A DNA stretch of 64,000 nucleotides, taken from assembly GCF_901538265.1 (NCBI RefSeq), contig NZ_LR593886.1:3022843-3086842 (forward strand). Reading direction: 5' to 3'. The translations under genes were made by a program, and so were the position numbers. Below, one piece after another: positions 11,490 through 23,275 of the stretch. This stretch comes from Gemmata massiliana (lineage in GTDB: Bacteria > Planctomycetota > Planctomycetia > Gemmatales > Gemmataceae). The notes beneath the pieces are model-generated. The model did no database searches, was not told where the DNA came from, and was given only the letters and a program-made list of their open reading frames with translations. Position 1 is the first letter of the stretch; the number at the start of each line of letters is the position of its first letter.

Positions 11490-12143
11490 GTGACCGAAGC
11501 GGAGTGGATCGGGCACGCGGTTCCGGGGCTCATGCTCCGGTTCCTGGGCGACGCGGCGGGCGAGCGCCGGCTGCGGCTCTTCACGTGCAGTTGCGCGGAA
11601 CTGGTGTGGCACGCGATGCTCGAGCGCGAGGTACCGCGCGTCCTGGAACTCGCGTGGGCCGCCGCGGACGGGCTGTTCCCCGCGTCCGAACTGGAGGTTC
11701 TCGCCCCACAGCCCACAACCGGGCCGCTGGTGGGCCTGTACGCGGACCAAGTCCTGCAAGGCGCCTGTCGCTCCCCGTTCCCGGACACCGCGGCGACGAG
11801 TCGCAGGAACGTCGAGGCCCTCGCGGTCGTGCTCGCCGCGGACACCGGACGGGACACGGCGCGGGCCTCGGTCGCGTCGCGCACCACGTTAGCGAACTTC
11901 CTGCGCGACATCTTCGGGAACCCGTTCCGCCCGATGGCGCTTGCCCCCGAATGGCGCACGTCCACGGCTCTGGCGCTGGCCGCGCAGATGTACGAGTCGC
12001 GCGAGTTCGGCGCGCTGCCCATTCTGGCGGATGCGCTGCAAGATGCGGGGTGCGACAGCGCCGATGTGCTGAACCACTGCCGTGAGCCCGGTGTCCATGT
12101 GCGCGGGTGCTGGGTCGTTGATGGGGTGCTGGGGAAGGCGTAA
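11490..12143 (+). CDS. MTEAEWLA family protein, copy 5
   Basis: 217 residues from a GTG at 11490, directly after copy 4. N-module MTEAEWIGHAVPGLML with RRLRLFTCSCAELVW; middle with alanine-rich helices; C-module RDIFGNPFRPMALAPEWRTSTALALAAQMY in pieces through CWVVDGVLGKA. The ending GVLGKA is unusual, since nearly all copies end LVLGKE. Confidence 0.78.
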   Translation: MTEAEWIGHAVPGLMLRFLGDAAGERRLRLFTCSCAELVWHAMLEREVPRVLELAWAAADGLFPASELEVLAPQPTTGPLVGLYADQVLQGACRSPFPDTAATSRRNVEALAVVLAADTGRDTARASVASRTTLANFLRDIFGNPFRPMALAPEWRTSTALALAAQMYESREFGALPILADALQDAGCDSADVLNHCREPGVHVRGCWVVDGVLGKA

Positions 12144-14313: not shown

Positions 14314-14392
14314 ACGGTCCGGGGTGCGTCGTTAGGTTCTGGGCTTCTTCAGGTTTCGAGCACTTCGTTCCACTGCTTGGTGTCGGTGATTG

Positions 14393-15130
14393 ATGACCGA
14401 AGCGAAATGGCTCGCGTGCGGGAACTCGGTGTTGATGTTGTCGCAGATCGATGACACGACCAACTACCGTAAGTTGCGGCTGTTCACCTTCGCGTGCTGC
14501 CGCCGGTGCTGGGATCAATTGGGCGAAGATAGTCAGACTGCCATTGATGTTGCGGAGCAGTTCGTGGAAGAAAAAGTGGGAGAAGCCGAGTTGCTGGATG
14601 CTTGGAGGAATACTGATTATTACCTCCCCCATCCATTTGATGACTCTGGCTTTGTCGGTTACCGTCGCGGCTTTATTGGGCGTGGCGCGTCGCTGTCCTA
14701 TGCCGCCTGGGTTGCCGGTCGCGCTTCGGACATTGCTTGGTCGAGCGCCCGAAAGGACGACGCTTCACTCATTGCGCGTTGCGCTGCGGCGAGCCGGGCA
14801 TACAGCGGTATCGAGCGAATTGGTGGAAAACGATCTGAGTGGCGACGGTTTGAAGCAGAAGAGCTCGCTGCCCAGGCCGACTTGCTCCGCGATATCTTGG
14901 GCACGCGCCTGTTTCGATTAACGAACTTTCCTACCACGTGGCGCACTTCCACTGTTGTGGCGCTCGCTTCGCAGATGTACGAATCACGCGACTTCGGCGC
15001 GATGCCGATTCTGGCCGACGCGCTCCAGGACGCGGGGTGCGACAGCGCCGATGTGCTCGATCACTGCCGGGGTGAGGGGCCGCACGTGCGCGGGTGCTGG
15101 GTCGTGGACTTGGTGCTCGGCAAGGAGTAG
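14393..15130 (+). CDS. MTEAEWLA family protein, copy 7
   Basis: 245 residues from the ATG at 14393. MTEAKWLACGNSVLML, YRKLRLFTFACCRRCW, AEQFVEE, then a middle rich in Tyr and Ala. The usual IFGNPFRP block is altered to RDILGTRLFRLTNFPTTW, but WRTSTVVALASQMYES and the Cys/His tail are kept. Codon use in the middle is less GC-rich than in the ends. Confidence 0.78.
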   Translation: MTEAKWLACGNSVLMLSQIDDTTNYRKLRLFTFACCRRCWDQLGEDSQTAIDVAEQFVEEKVGEAELLDAWRNTDYYLPHPFDDSGFVGYRRGFIGRGASLSYAAWVAGRASDIAWSSARKDDASLIARCAAASRAYSGIERIGGKRSEWRRFEAEELAAQADLLRDILGTRLFRLTNFPTTWRTSTVVALASQMYESRDFGAMPILADALQDAGCDSADVLDHCRGEGPHVRGCWVVDLVLGKE

Positions 15131-15773: not shown

Positions 15774-16077
15774 GCGAAACGACGCGGGCCGGGAATCACT
15801 CTCCGGCCCGTGGTGCTCCCGTGTTGTCTACTTCCCGACCTGGAGCGCGGAACGCTCACGGCAACGCCGGACTCCCCACTTATGTGGAGATTTTGGAACC
15901 GCGATCCGCGAGGTTGCTCCAGACCAAAATCTCCACATAAGTGGGGAGTCCGAAAGCGGTGCTGGAACAGCGCTTCCCCGCGCGGATTGTGGTGCAGTGT
16001 GCTCGGACGACGCAACATCGTCCTGTCGCAGAGCGACGAGCTAAACACGACCACGGGAACTGCACACAGCTTACCCG
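15774..16077. repeat. Structured repeat with replaceable hairpin, copy 1
   Basis: No gene is supported between 15697 and 16159. The unit begins with a GC hairpin (15785-15792 with 15803-15810), then a conserved strip (TCTACTTCCCGACC...), a perfect 28-base inverted repeat (15869-15896 with 15924-15951), and a conserved tail with GTGCTGGAACAGCG, the stem GGACGA-CGCAACA-TCGTCC and the stem GTCGC-AGA-GCGAC. The same flanks, but a different large hairpin, occur at 21317-21714. It could be a structured RNA or a small non-autonomous element. Confidence 0.7.
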
Positions 16078-16159
16078 AAACGGCGCGCGGTGCAAGGGCC
16101 GGGGCGCGGTTCGCGCTTGCGGCCGGCGCGGGAACGGATATTCCAGAGGGCGGGGGCAC

Positions 16160-16813
16160 GTGAGCGAACCACGCAAGCAACGGCTCGCCTACAGTTGGCC
16201 CCACCGGTTGCACCGGCTGTTCGTGTGCGCGATGTGTCGGCACGTGCTCCCCCTCATCGACAGCCCGGAACTGGCCGGCGTTCTGGAAACGGCGGAGGCT
16301 TTTGCCGACGGCACGGCATCCGTCGAGGACATGGCCCGCGCCCGCGCGGTATTCTTATCAGCTACGGGCTCGTTTGAGGGGGACGCGCGAATCGCTGCTC
16401 TCGCGGCGCAGATATACTGGGCCACGGAAGTCGGAACTGCTCATACTTGGGGCGAACTGACCCTCGGGATCATCGATCCACAAGCCGCTCCGACTGTCGG
16501 AGAGGCTATCTTCGCCAACCTGGACCTGCTCCTGAGCGAGGGCGTGGCGTCACTTCCCGAACTCGATTACGCGAGCCTGTTTGATGACATCGAACGGCGC
16601 GCCGTGCCCTTCTCTCCTTCCTGGCGCACTTCCACTGCGGTTGCGCTCGCTTCCCAGATGTACGAAGCGCGTGAGTTCGGCGCGCTGCCGATTCTGGGGG
16701 ACGCGCTCCAGGACGCGGGGTGTGACAGCGCTGATGTGTTGAACCACTGCCGCGCACCGGGTGTCCATGTGCGCGGGTGCTGGGTCGTGGACCTGGTGCT
16801 CGGCAAGGAGTAG
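16160..16813 (+). CDS. MTEAEWLA family protein, copy 8, missing first module
   Basis: 217 residues from a GTG at 16160. It lacks MTEAEWLA and opens SEPRKQRLAYSWPHRLHRLFVCAMCRHVLP, so the RKLRLFACACCRR region is replaced by a similar CAMC block, followed by AEAFADG. The IFGNPFRP block is reduced to AVPFSPSWRTSTAV; the tail is complete (DAGCDSADVLNHCRAPGVHVRGCW in parts). It begins just after the structured repeat, which may have altered its 5' end. Confidence 0.7.
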   Translation: MSEPRKQRLAYSWPHRLHRLFVCAMCRHVLPLIDSPELAGVLETAEAFADGTASVEDMARARAVFLSATGSFEGDARIAALAAQIYWATEVGTAHTWGELTLGIIDPQAAPTVGEAIFANLDLLLSEGVASLPELDYASLFDDIERRAVPFSPSWRTSTAVALASQMYEAREFGALPILGDALQDAGCDSADVLNHCRAPGVHVRGCWVVDLVLGKE

Positions 16814-16814
16814 T

Positions 16815-16924
16815 CGCGGGGAAGGGCGTTTCACCGCAGAGGGCGCGGAGAGCGCAGAGAAGAAACACAATTGGTTTTCTCCGCGCCCTCTCGTGCTCTC
16901 TGCGGTGAAACGCCCTTCCCCGCG
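16815..16924. terminator. Dispersed inverted repeat as convergent terminator
   Basis: Arms CGCGGGGAAGGGCGTTTCAC and its complement GCCCTTCCCCGCG enclose the common CCGCAGAGGGCGCGGAG unit. It begins 2 bases after the stop of copy 8 and ends 3 bases before the stop of the leftward sigma gene. It is the most complete example of this repeat in the window. Confidence 0.78.
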
Positions 16925-16926
16925 CC

Positions 16927-18423
16927 TTACCTCCCGCCCGGTGCCGATGGCTGGAGCTGCTTGAGCAACTCCGCGACCCCGGCGTGCCCCTTCTCGGTCT
17001 GGCGCACCACGAGCACCAGGCGGCTCGCGAGGAACTCGACGGACCCCGCGTCCGCGCCCCAGGACTTGGGCTCCACGGTGGCCCGGACCACCTTGGCCAG
17101 GGTCTCGCCATCGGCGACCGTGTCCACCAACTTCCCAACGGGGTACACCCGCACGAGCACTTTGGCCGCTTCCGGCGGCGTGCGCCCGTCCCCGGGGATG
17201 GGCGCGGGGGCGTCCTTCGCCGGTGGCGCCAGAGTGCCGTCCTTCGCCGGCGGTGCCAGGGTTTGCCCCTGCCCTACCGGGGGCAGCATGTTCAACCAAG
17301 GTGAAGGCGCGCCGTCCTTCGCCGGCGGCGCCAGTGTTTGGCCCCACAACCCGAAGCGCTGTGCGTTCTCCCAGGGGGAAGGCGCGCCATCGAACCCATA
17401 GGGAACCCTCAGACTCAGACCGTGACCGGATTGGAGTGCGTGCAGCCACGTGGCTTGCGCCAAGCGCTCGCGGAGTTCGGTCACTTCCTTGCGGAGCCGG
17501 TCCCGCTCGCGCTCCAGTTCGGCAATGCGCTCCTTATCGGAGTTTGGAGCGGCGCGCTTCGCCCCTTCGTTCTTCGGGGTATCGGCAACGGCCGTATTGG
17601 ACTGCCCTCCGGCCACGCTCACAGCCACAATCGCGCACGCGACCACGCACGCGGAGGCCGTTGCCCGGAGCTTGGTCAAGAACATCGCCTTCATTGTTCC
17701 CTCCACGAGTACCGCGACCGGGGGCGCAATAACGGCCCCACCGGTCGCTACGAGTACACTCAATCTCACCGTCGAGTCGGCCAGTTCGCACGCCACGGTC
17801 GGTGCCACGGACACCGCGCCGAGCCCCGCCGCGGGCACCGCGAGCCCGTACCGCGAGAGGCGCCGGGCGAGCAGGGATCGGGCACGCGCGAGCCGGCTCG
17901 ACAGCGTGCCCTCGGTCCACCCGAGCCGGACCGCGGCCTCGCGCCGAGGGAGGCCCTCCAGGTCGCACGCCACCACCGCCGCGCGGTACACGCCCGGCAG
18001 CGCCACCAGCTCCCGGTCCAGGGCTTCGCGCAACTCGGGCGCGAACCCGTCGTCCGGGGTGCCCGCCTCGGTCCGCGTCTCTGCGGCCCGACTTTCGCGC
18101 TCGCGCCGGACTGCGGCCGCGCGCCGGGCACCGAGGGCCGTTCGGTACGCGACCCCGTACAGCCAGTTCCCGAGCCGCAGTCGAGGCCCCAGTGCCCCGG
18201 CCCGGCGCGCGAGCACCAGGAACGTGGCCTGGAACGCATCTTCGGCGTCCTGGCGGTGCCGGAGCACGCGCCGACACACGGCCAGCACCATCGGTCCGTG
18301 GCGCCGGACCAGGGCCGCGAACGCGGGGCCGTCCCGGTTCGTAATGAATCGGGCGAGCAGGTCCGCGTCGGGCGCGGGGTCGGTCGTGGCGACCAAGTGT
18401 CGCAGGCGTGCGAGGTCGGTCAT
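16927..18423 (-). CDS. ECF sigma factor with membrane-anchored extension
   Basis: 498 residues. Sigma-2 region: DADLLARFITNRDGPAFAAL and HRQDAEDAFQATFLVLARRA. Sigma-4: ELVALPGVYRAAVVACDLEG, then the helix-turn-helix REAAVRLGWTEGTLSSRLARA. An extension follows with a membrane helix (ATASACVVACAIVAVSVAGG, about residue 265), a coiled coil (KERIAELERERDRLRKEVTE) and proline-rich repeats with APPAKDG. Such extended ECFs are typical of planctomycetes; the outer part probably senses or tethers and controls the sigma part. No anti-sigma gene is adjacent. Confidence 0.9.
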   Translation of the reverse strand: MTDLARLRHLVATTDPAPDADLLARFITNRDGPAFAALVRRHGPMVLAVCRRVLRHRQDAEDAFQATFLVLARRAGALGPRLRLGNWLYGVAYRTALGARRAAAVRRERESRAAETRTEAGTPDDGFAPELREALDRELVALPGVYRAAVVACDLEGLPRREAAVRLGWTEGTLSSRLARARSLLARRLSRYGLAVPAAGLGAVSVAPTVACELADSTVRLSVLVATGGAVIAPPVAVLVEGTMKAMFLTKLRATASACVVACAIVAVSVAGGQSNTAVADTPKNEGAKRAAPNSDKERIAELERERDRLRKEVTELRERLAQATWLHALQSGHGLSLRVPYGFDGAPSPWENAQRFGLWGQTLAPPAKDGAPSPWLNMLPPVGQGQTLAPPAKDGTLAPPAKDAPAPIPGDGRTPPEAAKVLVRVYPVGKLVDTVADGETLAKVVRATVEPKSWGADAGSVEFLASRLVLVVRQTEKGHAGVAELLKQLQPSAPGGR

Positions 18424-21316: not shown

Positions 21317-21714
21317 CGATAACGACACGAGCCGGGAATCGCTCCCCGGCTCGTGCTTCCCGACCGGCCCTGGCGGTGCGTGCGCTCCGCTGGGCGGGCC
21401 GGGCCACTTCCCGACCGGCCCTGGCGGTGCGTGCGCTCCGCTGGGCGGGCCGGTCAATGCTCCCGTGATGTCTACTTCCCGACCCGGGGCGCAGAACGCT
21501 TGCGGCACCGCCAGGGGCGGACTTTATTCAGACGGCGGGATCGCGCTTCTCGCGGTCGAACCCGCCCGCCAAGTTTGAATATGGTCCGCCCCTGAGTCGC
21601 GGTGCTGGAACAGCGGTCCCCGCGATGCGTGTGGTGCAGTTTTCTCGGACGACGCAACATCGTCCTGTCGCAGAGCGACGAGCTAAACCGACCACGGGAA
21701 CAGAGCACAGTTTA
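21317..21714. repeat. Structured repeat with replaceable hairpin, copy 2
   Basis: Same order as at 15774: first hairpin CGAGCCGGG (21328-21336) with CCCGGCTCG (21345-21353), the strip TCTACTTCCCGACCCGG, a large imperfect stem (CAGGGGCGGAC at 21512 with GTCCGCCCCTG at 21584), then GTGCTGGAACAGCGG and the two small stems GGACGA...TCGTCC and GTCGC...GCGAC (21648-21681). Compared with copy 1 the first stem shows compensating changes and the big hairpin is unrelated in sequence. Confidence 0.7.
21357..21458. repeat. 51-base tandem duplication
   Basis: CTTCCCGACCGGCCCTGGCG starts at 21356-21357 and again 51 bases later; the two units are identical until the last bases (GGGCCA against GGTCAA). It is an insertion inside the structured repeat, absent from copy 1. 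Confidence 0.8.
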
Positions 21715-22076: not shown

Positions 22077-22616
22077 ATGGCCCGCATCGAACTCGCGTTC
22101 CCACTACCCCCGGACGAGTGTACCGCGCGCCTGGCCGCGGGCACGAACCGGACCCGCGCGCTGTTCTTCGAGGACGAGCCCAAAGCGGTGTACGGGCGCG
22201 TCGAGGCCGGGCTGGTGAATGTGCGGCGGCGCGCGCCCCGCAGCCAGCTCCAGATGTGCCTCTCGGGAGCGTTCGAGGCGCGCGGGCCGGGGACCGTGTT
22301 CCGGGGTCGGATCGGGTGGGACGTTTCGTCCTGGTGCGCCCTGGTTGTCTTCGTGATGAACGCGTTGGTCTGGGCGTTTTTGCTGACCGTGAATGCGAAC
22401 AGCACATCTTCCGGGATCGGTCCGTGGCTGCTGCTGGCGCTACCGCTTGTAACCGTTGTGGGTGCCTTCAGCTTGTGGCGCGATTGGCGCAGAGCCCGCG
22501 GCGAGGGCGCGTTCCTGGTCGAGTTCCTGCGCCGGACCCTCGGCGGGACCGCGGACGAGAACGCGCCCGCGAGCAGTGAAGTGCGAGCCCGGGCGGGCTT
22601 CGGAGGGCACCTGTGA
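22077..22616 (+). CDS. Membrane protein, paralog of the 13627 gene
   Basis: 179 residues from the ATG at 22077 (a GTG at 22071 is possible). Soluble head IELAFPLPPDECTARLAAGT, then two membrane segments (SSWCALVVFVMNALVWAFLL and GPWLLLALPLVTVVGAFSLW), then WRRARGEGAFLVEFLRRTLG. The stop overlaps the GTG start of MTEAEWLA copy 10 (GTGA), indicating translational coupling of the two. Confidence 0.72.
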   Translation: MARIELAFPLPPDECTARLAAGTNRTRALFFEDEPKAVYGRVEAGLVNVRRRAPRSQLQMCLSGAFEARGPGTVFRGRIGWDVSSWCALVVFVMNALVWAFLLTVNANSTSSGIGPWLLLALPLVTVVGAFSLWRDWRRARGEGAFLVEFLRRTLGGTADENAPASSEVRARAGFGGHL

Positions 22617-23275
22617 CCGAGGCGGAATGGCTCGCGTGCGAAGAGTCGGACGCGATGATTCAGTTGCCGGCCGGCAAAAAGAGCGACCGAAAACTCAGAC
22701 TGTTCGCGGTGGCTTGCTGCGATCGTATTTCGCACCTTATTCCGACGGAGCCGAGCCGCCACTGTGTGGAAGTGGCACGGCGGCTCGCAGACGGCTCGGA
22801 ACGGCCGGGCGAGCGCCGCGCGGCCGTGATTGCGGCGATGGCCGACGAGGGAACCACCTCCGCTGCCGCCTGCGTCAGTGCCGTCAGCGCTTACGAAGCG
22901 GCCATAAGAACGGCCGATCATGCGGCTGTCGCCGTTGCGAGGGAGCAATACCCGGAACTGTACGAATCGGGGGAGCGAATACCGGAGTGGTACGACGTTA
23001 TTGGCATTGAGTCGATTGCTCAATGTGTTCTCCTCCGCGAGATCTTCGGGAACCCGTTTCGCCCCGTCGTCTTTTCTCCCTCCTGGCGCACCTCAACAGC
23101 CGTTGCGCTCGCGGCGCAGATGTACGAGTCACGCGAGTTCGGCGCGCTGCCGATCCTGGCGGACGCGCTCCAGGACGCGGGATGTGACAACGCCGATGTG
23201 CTGAACCACGGCCGCGGTGAGGGGCCGCACGTGCGCGGGTGCTGGGTCGTCGATTCGGTGTTGGGCAAGGAATGA
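22613..23275 (+). CDS. MTEAEWLA family protein, copy 10
   Basis: 220 residues from a GTG at 22613 overlapping the previous stop. N-module MTEAEWLACEESDAMIQL and SDRKLRLFAVACCDRI, AAARLADG-like block, variable alanine-rich middle, C-module REIFGNPFRPVVFSPSWRTS. The invariant HC of the tail is HG here (VLNHGRGEGPHVRGCW), the only intact copy with that Cys lost. This may be an early decay step or tolerated change. Confidence 0.78.
   Translation: MTEAEWLACEESDAMIQLPAGKKSDRKLRLFAVACCDRISHLIPTEPSRHCVEVARRLADGSERPGERRAAVIAAMADEGTTSAAACVSAVSAYEAAIRTADHAAVAVAREQYPELYESGERIPEWYDVIGIESIAQCVLLREIFGNPFRPVVFSPSWRTSTAVALAAQMYESREFGALPILADALQDAGCDNADVLNHGRGEGPHVRGCWVVDSVLGKE

Follow-up and report, generated by a model that had tools for sequence, protein, structure and literature searches.

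Dispersed, probable type XIII retron RNAs with exchangeable msd hairpins in Gemmata massiliana and related Gemmataceae

Background

In known retrons an effector is held in check by the reverse TRANSCRIPTASE (RT) together with its msDNA, and is freed when phage proteins modify, bind or degrade that msDNA (PMC12548924, PMC13158370). Methylation triggers Retron-Squ1 and probably Asa1 (PMC12548924), while the trigger of Ec86 is a Dcm-like methylase and that of Eco8 is SSB (PMC13158370). The msDNA hairpin of Retron-Eco1 (Ec86) serves as a methyltransferase-sensed latch, and how the sequence of an msDNA sets what its retron senses is called unclear in a commentary (PMC13158370). Retron priming uses a guanosine within a conserved AGC (PMC6868368).

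Two described systems come closest to the element analyzed here, namely the type XIII retrons modelled in PADLOC and the solo msr-msd repeats of Nannocystis exedens (Retron-Nex1, Ne160), several of which occur in one genome with no RT nearby, according to PMC6868368. Like type XIII retrons, the present system has an RT, two HEAT-ARM proteins and a SWIM protein in one locus headed by an ncRNA copy; unlike them, it has up to 35 further ncRNA genes elsewhere in the genome, each with its own msd stem, and one RT. The N. exedens elements differ by description, since the same paper presents them as duplicated repeats and makes no mention of stem exchange, perfect unrelated stems, palindromes or prophage copies. 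Retron-Eco1 shares the a1/a2 closing stem, the branch G directly after it, msr hairpins that precede a long msd hairpin, and a homologous RT, but it has a single ncRNA per retron, which lies beside the RT and whose msd is fixed. CRISPR arrays, integron cassettes and bridge RNAs are alike only in their working, a constant frame with exchangeable payloads; unlike these, our element has no array and no Cas, integrase or IS110 partner, and its payloads, self-complementary hairpins, sit in an RNA linked to a retron RT. On anatomical grounds bridge RNA, integron attC and CRISPR were rejected. In the literature searched (retrons combined with Gemmata, planctomycetes or type XIII, the original classification paper lying outside it), we found no description of a dispersed retron ncRNA family with exchanged stems.

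Anatomy of the RNA

The window is a 64,000-nucleotide stretch of the G. massiliana genome (contig NZ_LR593886.1, 3,022,843 to 3,086,842), and it contains two copies of the element. An earlier note on this DNA had described them as a structured repeat with a large exchanged hairpin, and its observation that the flanks are common to both copies was borne out, with 85-92% identity over the aligned blocks. All copies can be read as one RNA, on the strand opposite to that of the earlier note, which for the two window copies is the minus strand, and minus-strand folding of the element is stable relative to shuffles (z = -7.7). On this strand a promoter-like pair and an a1 arm precede the motif TTTAGC, after which come two small hairpins, a basal stem and a long hairpin; a conserved tail that ends in AGTAGAC leads to an a2 arm, and a GC-rich terminator-like hairpin follows. 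The order a1-msr-msd-a2 and the G of UUUAGC are those of retron RNA, and on this anatomical ground we identify the element as a retron ncRNA (msr-msd). A search of the window against Rfam at the gathering score gave no match, and weak microRNA-hairpin chance matches were all that was seen below it.

In copy 1 (all features on the minus strand) the promoter-like pair comprises a -35-like TTGCAC at 16090-16095, recognized by sequence, and a -10-like TAAGCT at 16068-16073, 16 nt away, in a GTA-rich box that is conserved among copies. The a1 arm of the closing stem is GTTCCCGTGGTCGTG at 16046-16060, and its a2 arm lies at 15814-15825. TTTAGC lies at 16040-16045, with position 16041 as the putative branch guanosine, and the motif begins the msr region (15956-16045) with its two small covarying hairpins. 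These hairpins are the two small stems that had been noted as identical in both copies. The msd stem follows as a 5' arm at 15924-15952, exchangeable and unrelated in sequence to that of other copies, a 27-nt semi-conserved loop at 15897-15923 (CTGGAGCAACC..CGCGGTT), and a 3' arm at 15868-15896. The inverted repeat formed by these arms is perfect, as had been claimed, but its length is 29 bp rather than 28. The conserved 3' tail (basal stem partner plus GGTCGGGAAGTAGAC) occupies 15826-15864, and a terminator-like hairpin lies at 15783-15812. The last of these had been called a small first stem, and the compensating change noted in it (CGGGCC/GGCCCG against CGAGCC/GGCTCG) is real, but the stem is terminator-like and falls outside the RNA core; it is probably the transcription terminator of the minus-strand RNA. 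A strict sigma-70 scan of copy 1 called no promoter and a strict terminator scan found no T-run and called no terminator, and for this reason promoter and terminator of copy 1 are only suggested.

Copy 2 has the same layout on the minus strand, with an a1 arm at 21688-21702, an msr region at 21599-21687 (TTTAGC at 21682-21687) and an a2 arm at 21458-21469. Its msd hairpin (21512-21594, arms 21512-21533 and 21573-21594) is a variant: it is unrelated in sequence to that of copy 1 and is still a hairpin, as the earlier note had it, but is longer and imperfect, the arms being 86% complementary. The same msd is found, identical, in Gemmata sp. IIL30 (L228). A tandemly duplicated GC-rich unit of 47 nt (21356-21402 and 21407-21453, together 21356-21453, given without strand) separates a2 from the terminator-like hairpin, which is thereby displaced to 21326-21352. 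A similar unit also follows copy L012 elsewhere in the genome.

The suggestion that the repeat is a structured RNA was upheld by covariation, across 28 copies and then across 103. TTTAGC is invariant in the 28 copies; their two msr hairpins are 99% paired and show many two-sided changes, well beyond what shuffled and slid controls give. The consensus of 103 sequences adds a five-pair GUUUA/UAGAC helix directly before the G of UUUAGC, together with a basal stem, and comprises short msr hairpins and then a long msd hairpin, with covariation. A branch-type G within (U)AGC is accordingly present immediately after the closing stem, and priming from it is predicted from sequence. The msd stem of about 28 bp is free in sequence and nearly always perfect in pairing: in the 103 copies it has about 27 pairs, nearly every position shows at least 4 pair types, and positions are 92-100% paired. 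The core from TTTAGC to AGTAGAC measures 218-220 nt in 111 of 114 copies. The a1 and a2 sequences vary among these 114 copies but match each other copy by copy, with a mean pairing of 10.7 for own arms and 6.6 for swapped arms (p = 3e-37). A promoter-like CTTGC-N14-19-TANNN was found upstream of 58% of the 114 copies as against 7% of random windows, and a strong terminator-like hairpin at the expected place in 77% of copies as against 8% of random windows.

Copy number and distribution

When copy 1 was searched against its own 10.1-Mb genome, 37 further matches were found, one of them its own other strand. A covariance model, R1, was built from the most conserved 90 nt of the element; in the window it recovers exactly two copies, at 15956-16045 (107.6 bits, E = 6e-27) and 21599-21687 (106.1 bits), both on the minus strand. 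The condition that the earlier note had set for its own refutation, two copies only and no covariation in further examples, fails: R1 finds 36 in this genome, covariation among the copies is strong, and the ncRNA model is positive in 30 of 95 Gemmataceae genomes with some 320 copies in all. Seventeen of the 19 members of the genus carry 7-36 copies per genome, and other genera carry 1-6. Some copies are degenerate (45-77 bits). Weak matches were also found in two other families of the phylum (L200 at G159:C1266:2437-2527 and L201 at G201:C1:4024355-4024442), so the RNA is not restricted to Gemmataceae.

No partner gene is common to all copies. Among neighbours that are related to one another, a multi-copy paralogue family of the MTEAEWLAC type makes up the largest group, for which three members tested gave no NCBIfam match. 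This family (MTEAEWLAC... GCWVVDLVLGKE) has many copies per genome and flanks several ncRNA copies, with members in the window at 14390-15130, 11490-12143 and 22613-23275, among others. Empty sites, which the earlier note had proposed to look for, did not appear in a joined-flank search: orthologous sites were occupied, and the search was swamped by the same paralogue family.

Association with a type XIII retron RT

A census of the genome found nine RT domains, five of them retron-type. Only one RT type tracks the ncRNA, that encoded at G000:C1:7595792-7597096 (L037). This RT is present, at 61-100% identity, in 31 of the 95 genomes, and its distribution coincides with that of the ncRNA: both are present in 29 genomes, the RT only in 2, the ncRNA only in 1 and neither in 63 (p = 6e-21). 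The two RT-only genomes (G029 and G030) have fragmented assemblies in which the RT is close to a contig end, and in the ncRNA-only genome (G032) a 5-kb contig carries the ncRNA at its edge. Upstream of the RT, on the same strand and with three genes between, 18 genomes have one ncRNA copy at a distance of 11.6-13.4 kb. As seen at locus L070, the order is ncRNA, two HEAT-ARM proteins of 1097 and 2299 aa, a SWIM protein of 664 aa and the RT. The PADLOC type XIII models match all of these proteins (RT_XIII, 1.5e-158; HEAT-ARM_XIII, two proteins with E = 0; SWIM_XIII, 9e-187). The closest PDB match of the RT is the Ec86 retron RT (2e-37), and its motifs NALVH, VTGLVV and YADD include the NAXXH and VTG motifs of clade XIII. 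We know of no experimental work on type XIII retron function.

Because of the co-occurrence with the RT, the fixed place at its locus and the type XIII protein matches, the family is probably the ncRNA of a type XIII retron, most copies being solo genes that would be served in trans by one RT. The window copies, like the other dispersed copies, have no RT nearby; a single RT is presumed to act on all of them in trans, and this point weighs against the reading.

The four other retron-type RTs of this genome are at G000:C1:1490285, 4330839, 6322061 and 8958122 (L034, L036, L035 and L039), and two of the four are type XIII-like with extra N-terminal parts. RTs of the L034 and L035 types were considered as partners and rejected, as they also occur in genomes without the ncRNA and do not track it. 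Two other genera (G006 and G051) have a pair of tandem ncRNA copies, each with its own stem, at the head of the retron locus (L063 / L075, 15490-15859; L058 / L071, 2338-2785).

Exchange of the msd hairpin

Different copies as a rule carry unrelated stems: the 118 intact ones sort into 95 groups with no 12-mer in common. Exchange was examined in four related genomes at sites matched by both flanks, which gave 14 informative pairs. In seven of these the stems are conserved, being 94-100% identical. In the other seven, which are partly non-independent (three are from the RT locus and two from one other site), the stems are replaced and are 30-45% identical, the level of chance, with flanks 78-96% and msr 77-97% identical. 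Completely different stems at orthologous sites agree with the earlier suggestion that a hairpin payload is swapped. Among the replaced pairs is the copy at the RT locus, and its stem differs in every genome compared. The change is all-or-nothing, stems being either near identical or replaced whole.

Stems also move between sites. A site in Gemmata sp. IIL30 that matches window copy 1 (by one flank only, at 87%) carries CCGCGGGGCCTGCAATTCTTACTGCAGG, which is the stem of copy L019 in G. massiliana, and L002 and L016 have the same stem at two sites in one genome. The simplest account of this movement would be that copies recombine or undergo gene conversion by way of the conserved frame.

Prophage-borne copies

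Four copies in this genome adjoin terminase genes: L005 (G000:C1:2492433-2494967), L006 (6359969-6362486) and L011 (7288859-7289543) lie beside TerL, and L007 (10005644) beside TerS. Portal and head genes are found downstream of L005 and L006, and the stem is different in each of the prophage copies. Two IMG/VR contigs have the same layout, with an ncRNA copy directly beside terminase genes. The copies in prophages could be cargo that protects the lysogen, or could serve counter-defence. At L209 and L210, too, an ncRNA copy adjoins terminase genes.

Palindromes within the stems

Single arms of the msd stem contain dyads of their own, for example GAAGTCGAATTCGACTTC, AGTTGCCCAGGGCAACT and GGGCGACAATTGTCGCCC. 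The mean dyad score of 95 unrelated arms is raised, with z = 12 relative to dinucleotide shuffles and z = 17 relative to random genomic windows, and a score attained by 5% of windows is attained by 44% of arms. In sequence these dyads look like sites of dimeric DNA-binding proteins.

Possible targets were sought in several collections. Searched against their own genome for origins or operators, 27 stems found only themselves, except for L015, which resembles the coding sequence of the N-terminal DUF1559 motif LLVVIAIIAI, found in many genes. The same 27 stems compared with 50,697 phage records gave one chance match (E = 4). As they match no own-genome site or phage beyond chance, the DUF1559 motifs aside, no bait target was identified. 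The L015 likeness extends over 22-23 of 24 positions (G000:C1:10066094, 9489876 and others), and it may be either chance or captured host sequence. A scan of IMG/VR with three dyads from stems of relatives gave 1, 9 and 6 matches, as against 1 for a scrambled 18-nt palindrome, and most matches of the 18-nt dyad come from a few homologous genes, in coding frames; since these matches are at chance level or in coding sequence, we draw no inference from them.

Proposed function and alternative explanations

The mechanism proposed here starts from what the genomes themselves display, namely the RNA structure and copy number, the promoter- and terminator-like signals, the RT link, stem exchange, the palindromes and the prophage copies. 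Each solo ncRNA gene would be transcribed from the minus strand into an RNA of about 250 nt closed by a1/a2. The type XIII RT, encoded once together with its HEAT-ARM and SWIM partners, would copy the msd in trans from the branch G, yielding msDNAs that share one frame and each bear a different long DNA hairpin. The hairpin stem would behave as a cassette that is either retained or exchanged as a whole, probably when copies recombine or undergo gene conversion through their conserved flanks, and prophages carry some of the copies. The palindrome-rich stems may then serve as an assorted set of double-stranded DNA baits, contacted by phage proteins that bind or modify DNA, and varied baits might make one effector complex triggerable by many phages. 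That the stems act as baits is a tentative proposal. We are similarly cautious about a diversified sensor repertoire, one RT/effector complex loaded with dozens of msDNAs whose palindromic stems were individually evolved or acquired as baits and are reshuffled between genomic sites and prophages, a modular bait library of bacterial innate immunity; this is conceivable, though less likely than not.

Other explanations bear on the RNA itself. Were it a structured RNA unrelated to retrons, for instance of a bridge or regulatory type, most copies would be expected far from the RT, as they are, and Rfam would be silent, but coincidence with the RT would have to produce both the p value of 6e-21 and the constant position ahead of the RT operon in 18 genomes, and the retron order a1-msr-msd-a2 with UUUAGC would be left over; we regard this as most improbable. 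The dispersed copies might instead be functionless relics, retrotransposed or duplicated msr-msd of the kind proposed for the msDNA-like repeats of N. exedens, a precedent cited in PMC6868368. Their lack of an adjacent RT and of a common partner gene, and the degenerate members of the family, fit such an origin. Unconstrained copies would, however, lose their promoter- and terminator-like signals, copy-by-copy a1/a2 pairing, covariation and perfect stems; the core length is constant, and the copies extend beyond the ncRNA and so are not simple reverse transcripts. We think relics unlikely as a general explanation.

Two further alternatives leave the retron assignment intact. The palindromes may owe their presence to mutation, with the RT or a polymerase switching templates in hairpin DNA, rather than to protein binding. 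Long hairpins are prone to such switching, and no binding partner and no match to an endogenous operator was found; orthologous stems, however, are near identical or replaced whole with no gradual change, and mutation alone leaves the unrelated stems unexplained. We treat this as a possibility of some weight, short of an even chance. The prophage copies, for their part, could be counter-defence, with phage ncRNA occupying the RT or re-inhibiting the effector and host copies being partly phage-derived. The copies beside TerL and TerS and the two similar IMG/VR contigs are consistent with this, but most copies have no known prophage location, exchange affects even the copy at the RT locus, and prophage copies may equally give immunity against rival phages; we consider it rather unlikely. 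Should the repertoire of msDNAs exist as proposed, it would be the first natural multi-payload retron known to us. Hundreds of natural msd stems stand in one frame, some kept and some replaced at the same site and some borne by prophages, and the question of how msDNA sequence governs sensing is therefore directly testable. An obvious use would be as a frame accepting any hairpin of about 28 bp.

Another palindromic repeat in the window

A long inverted repeat of a different kind, TTTCACCGCAGAGGGCGCG..., lies in the window at 16812-16847 and 16892-16927. It is apparently a dispersed palindromic repeat, and a relative of it sits just upstream of the type XIII RT (L037).
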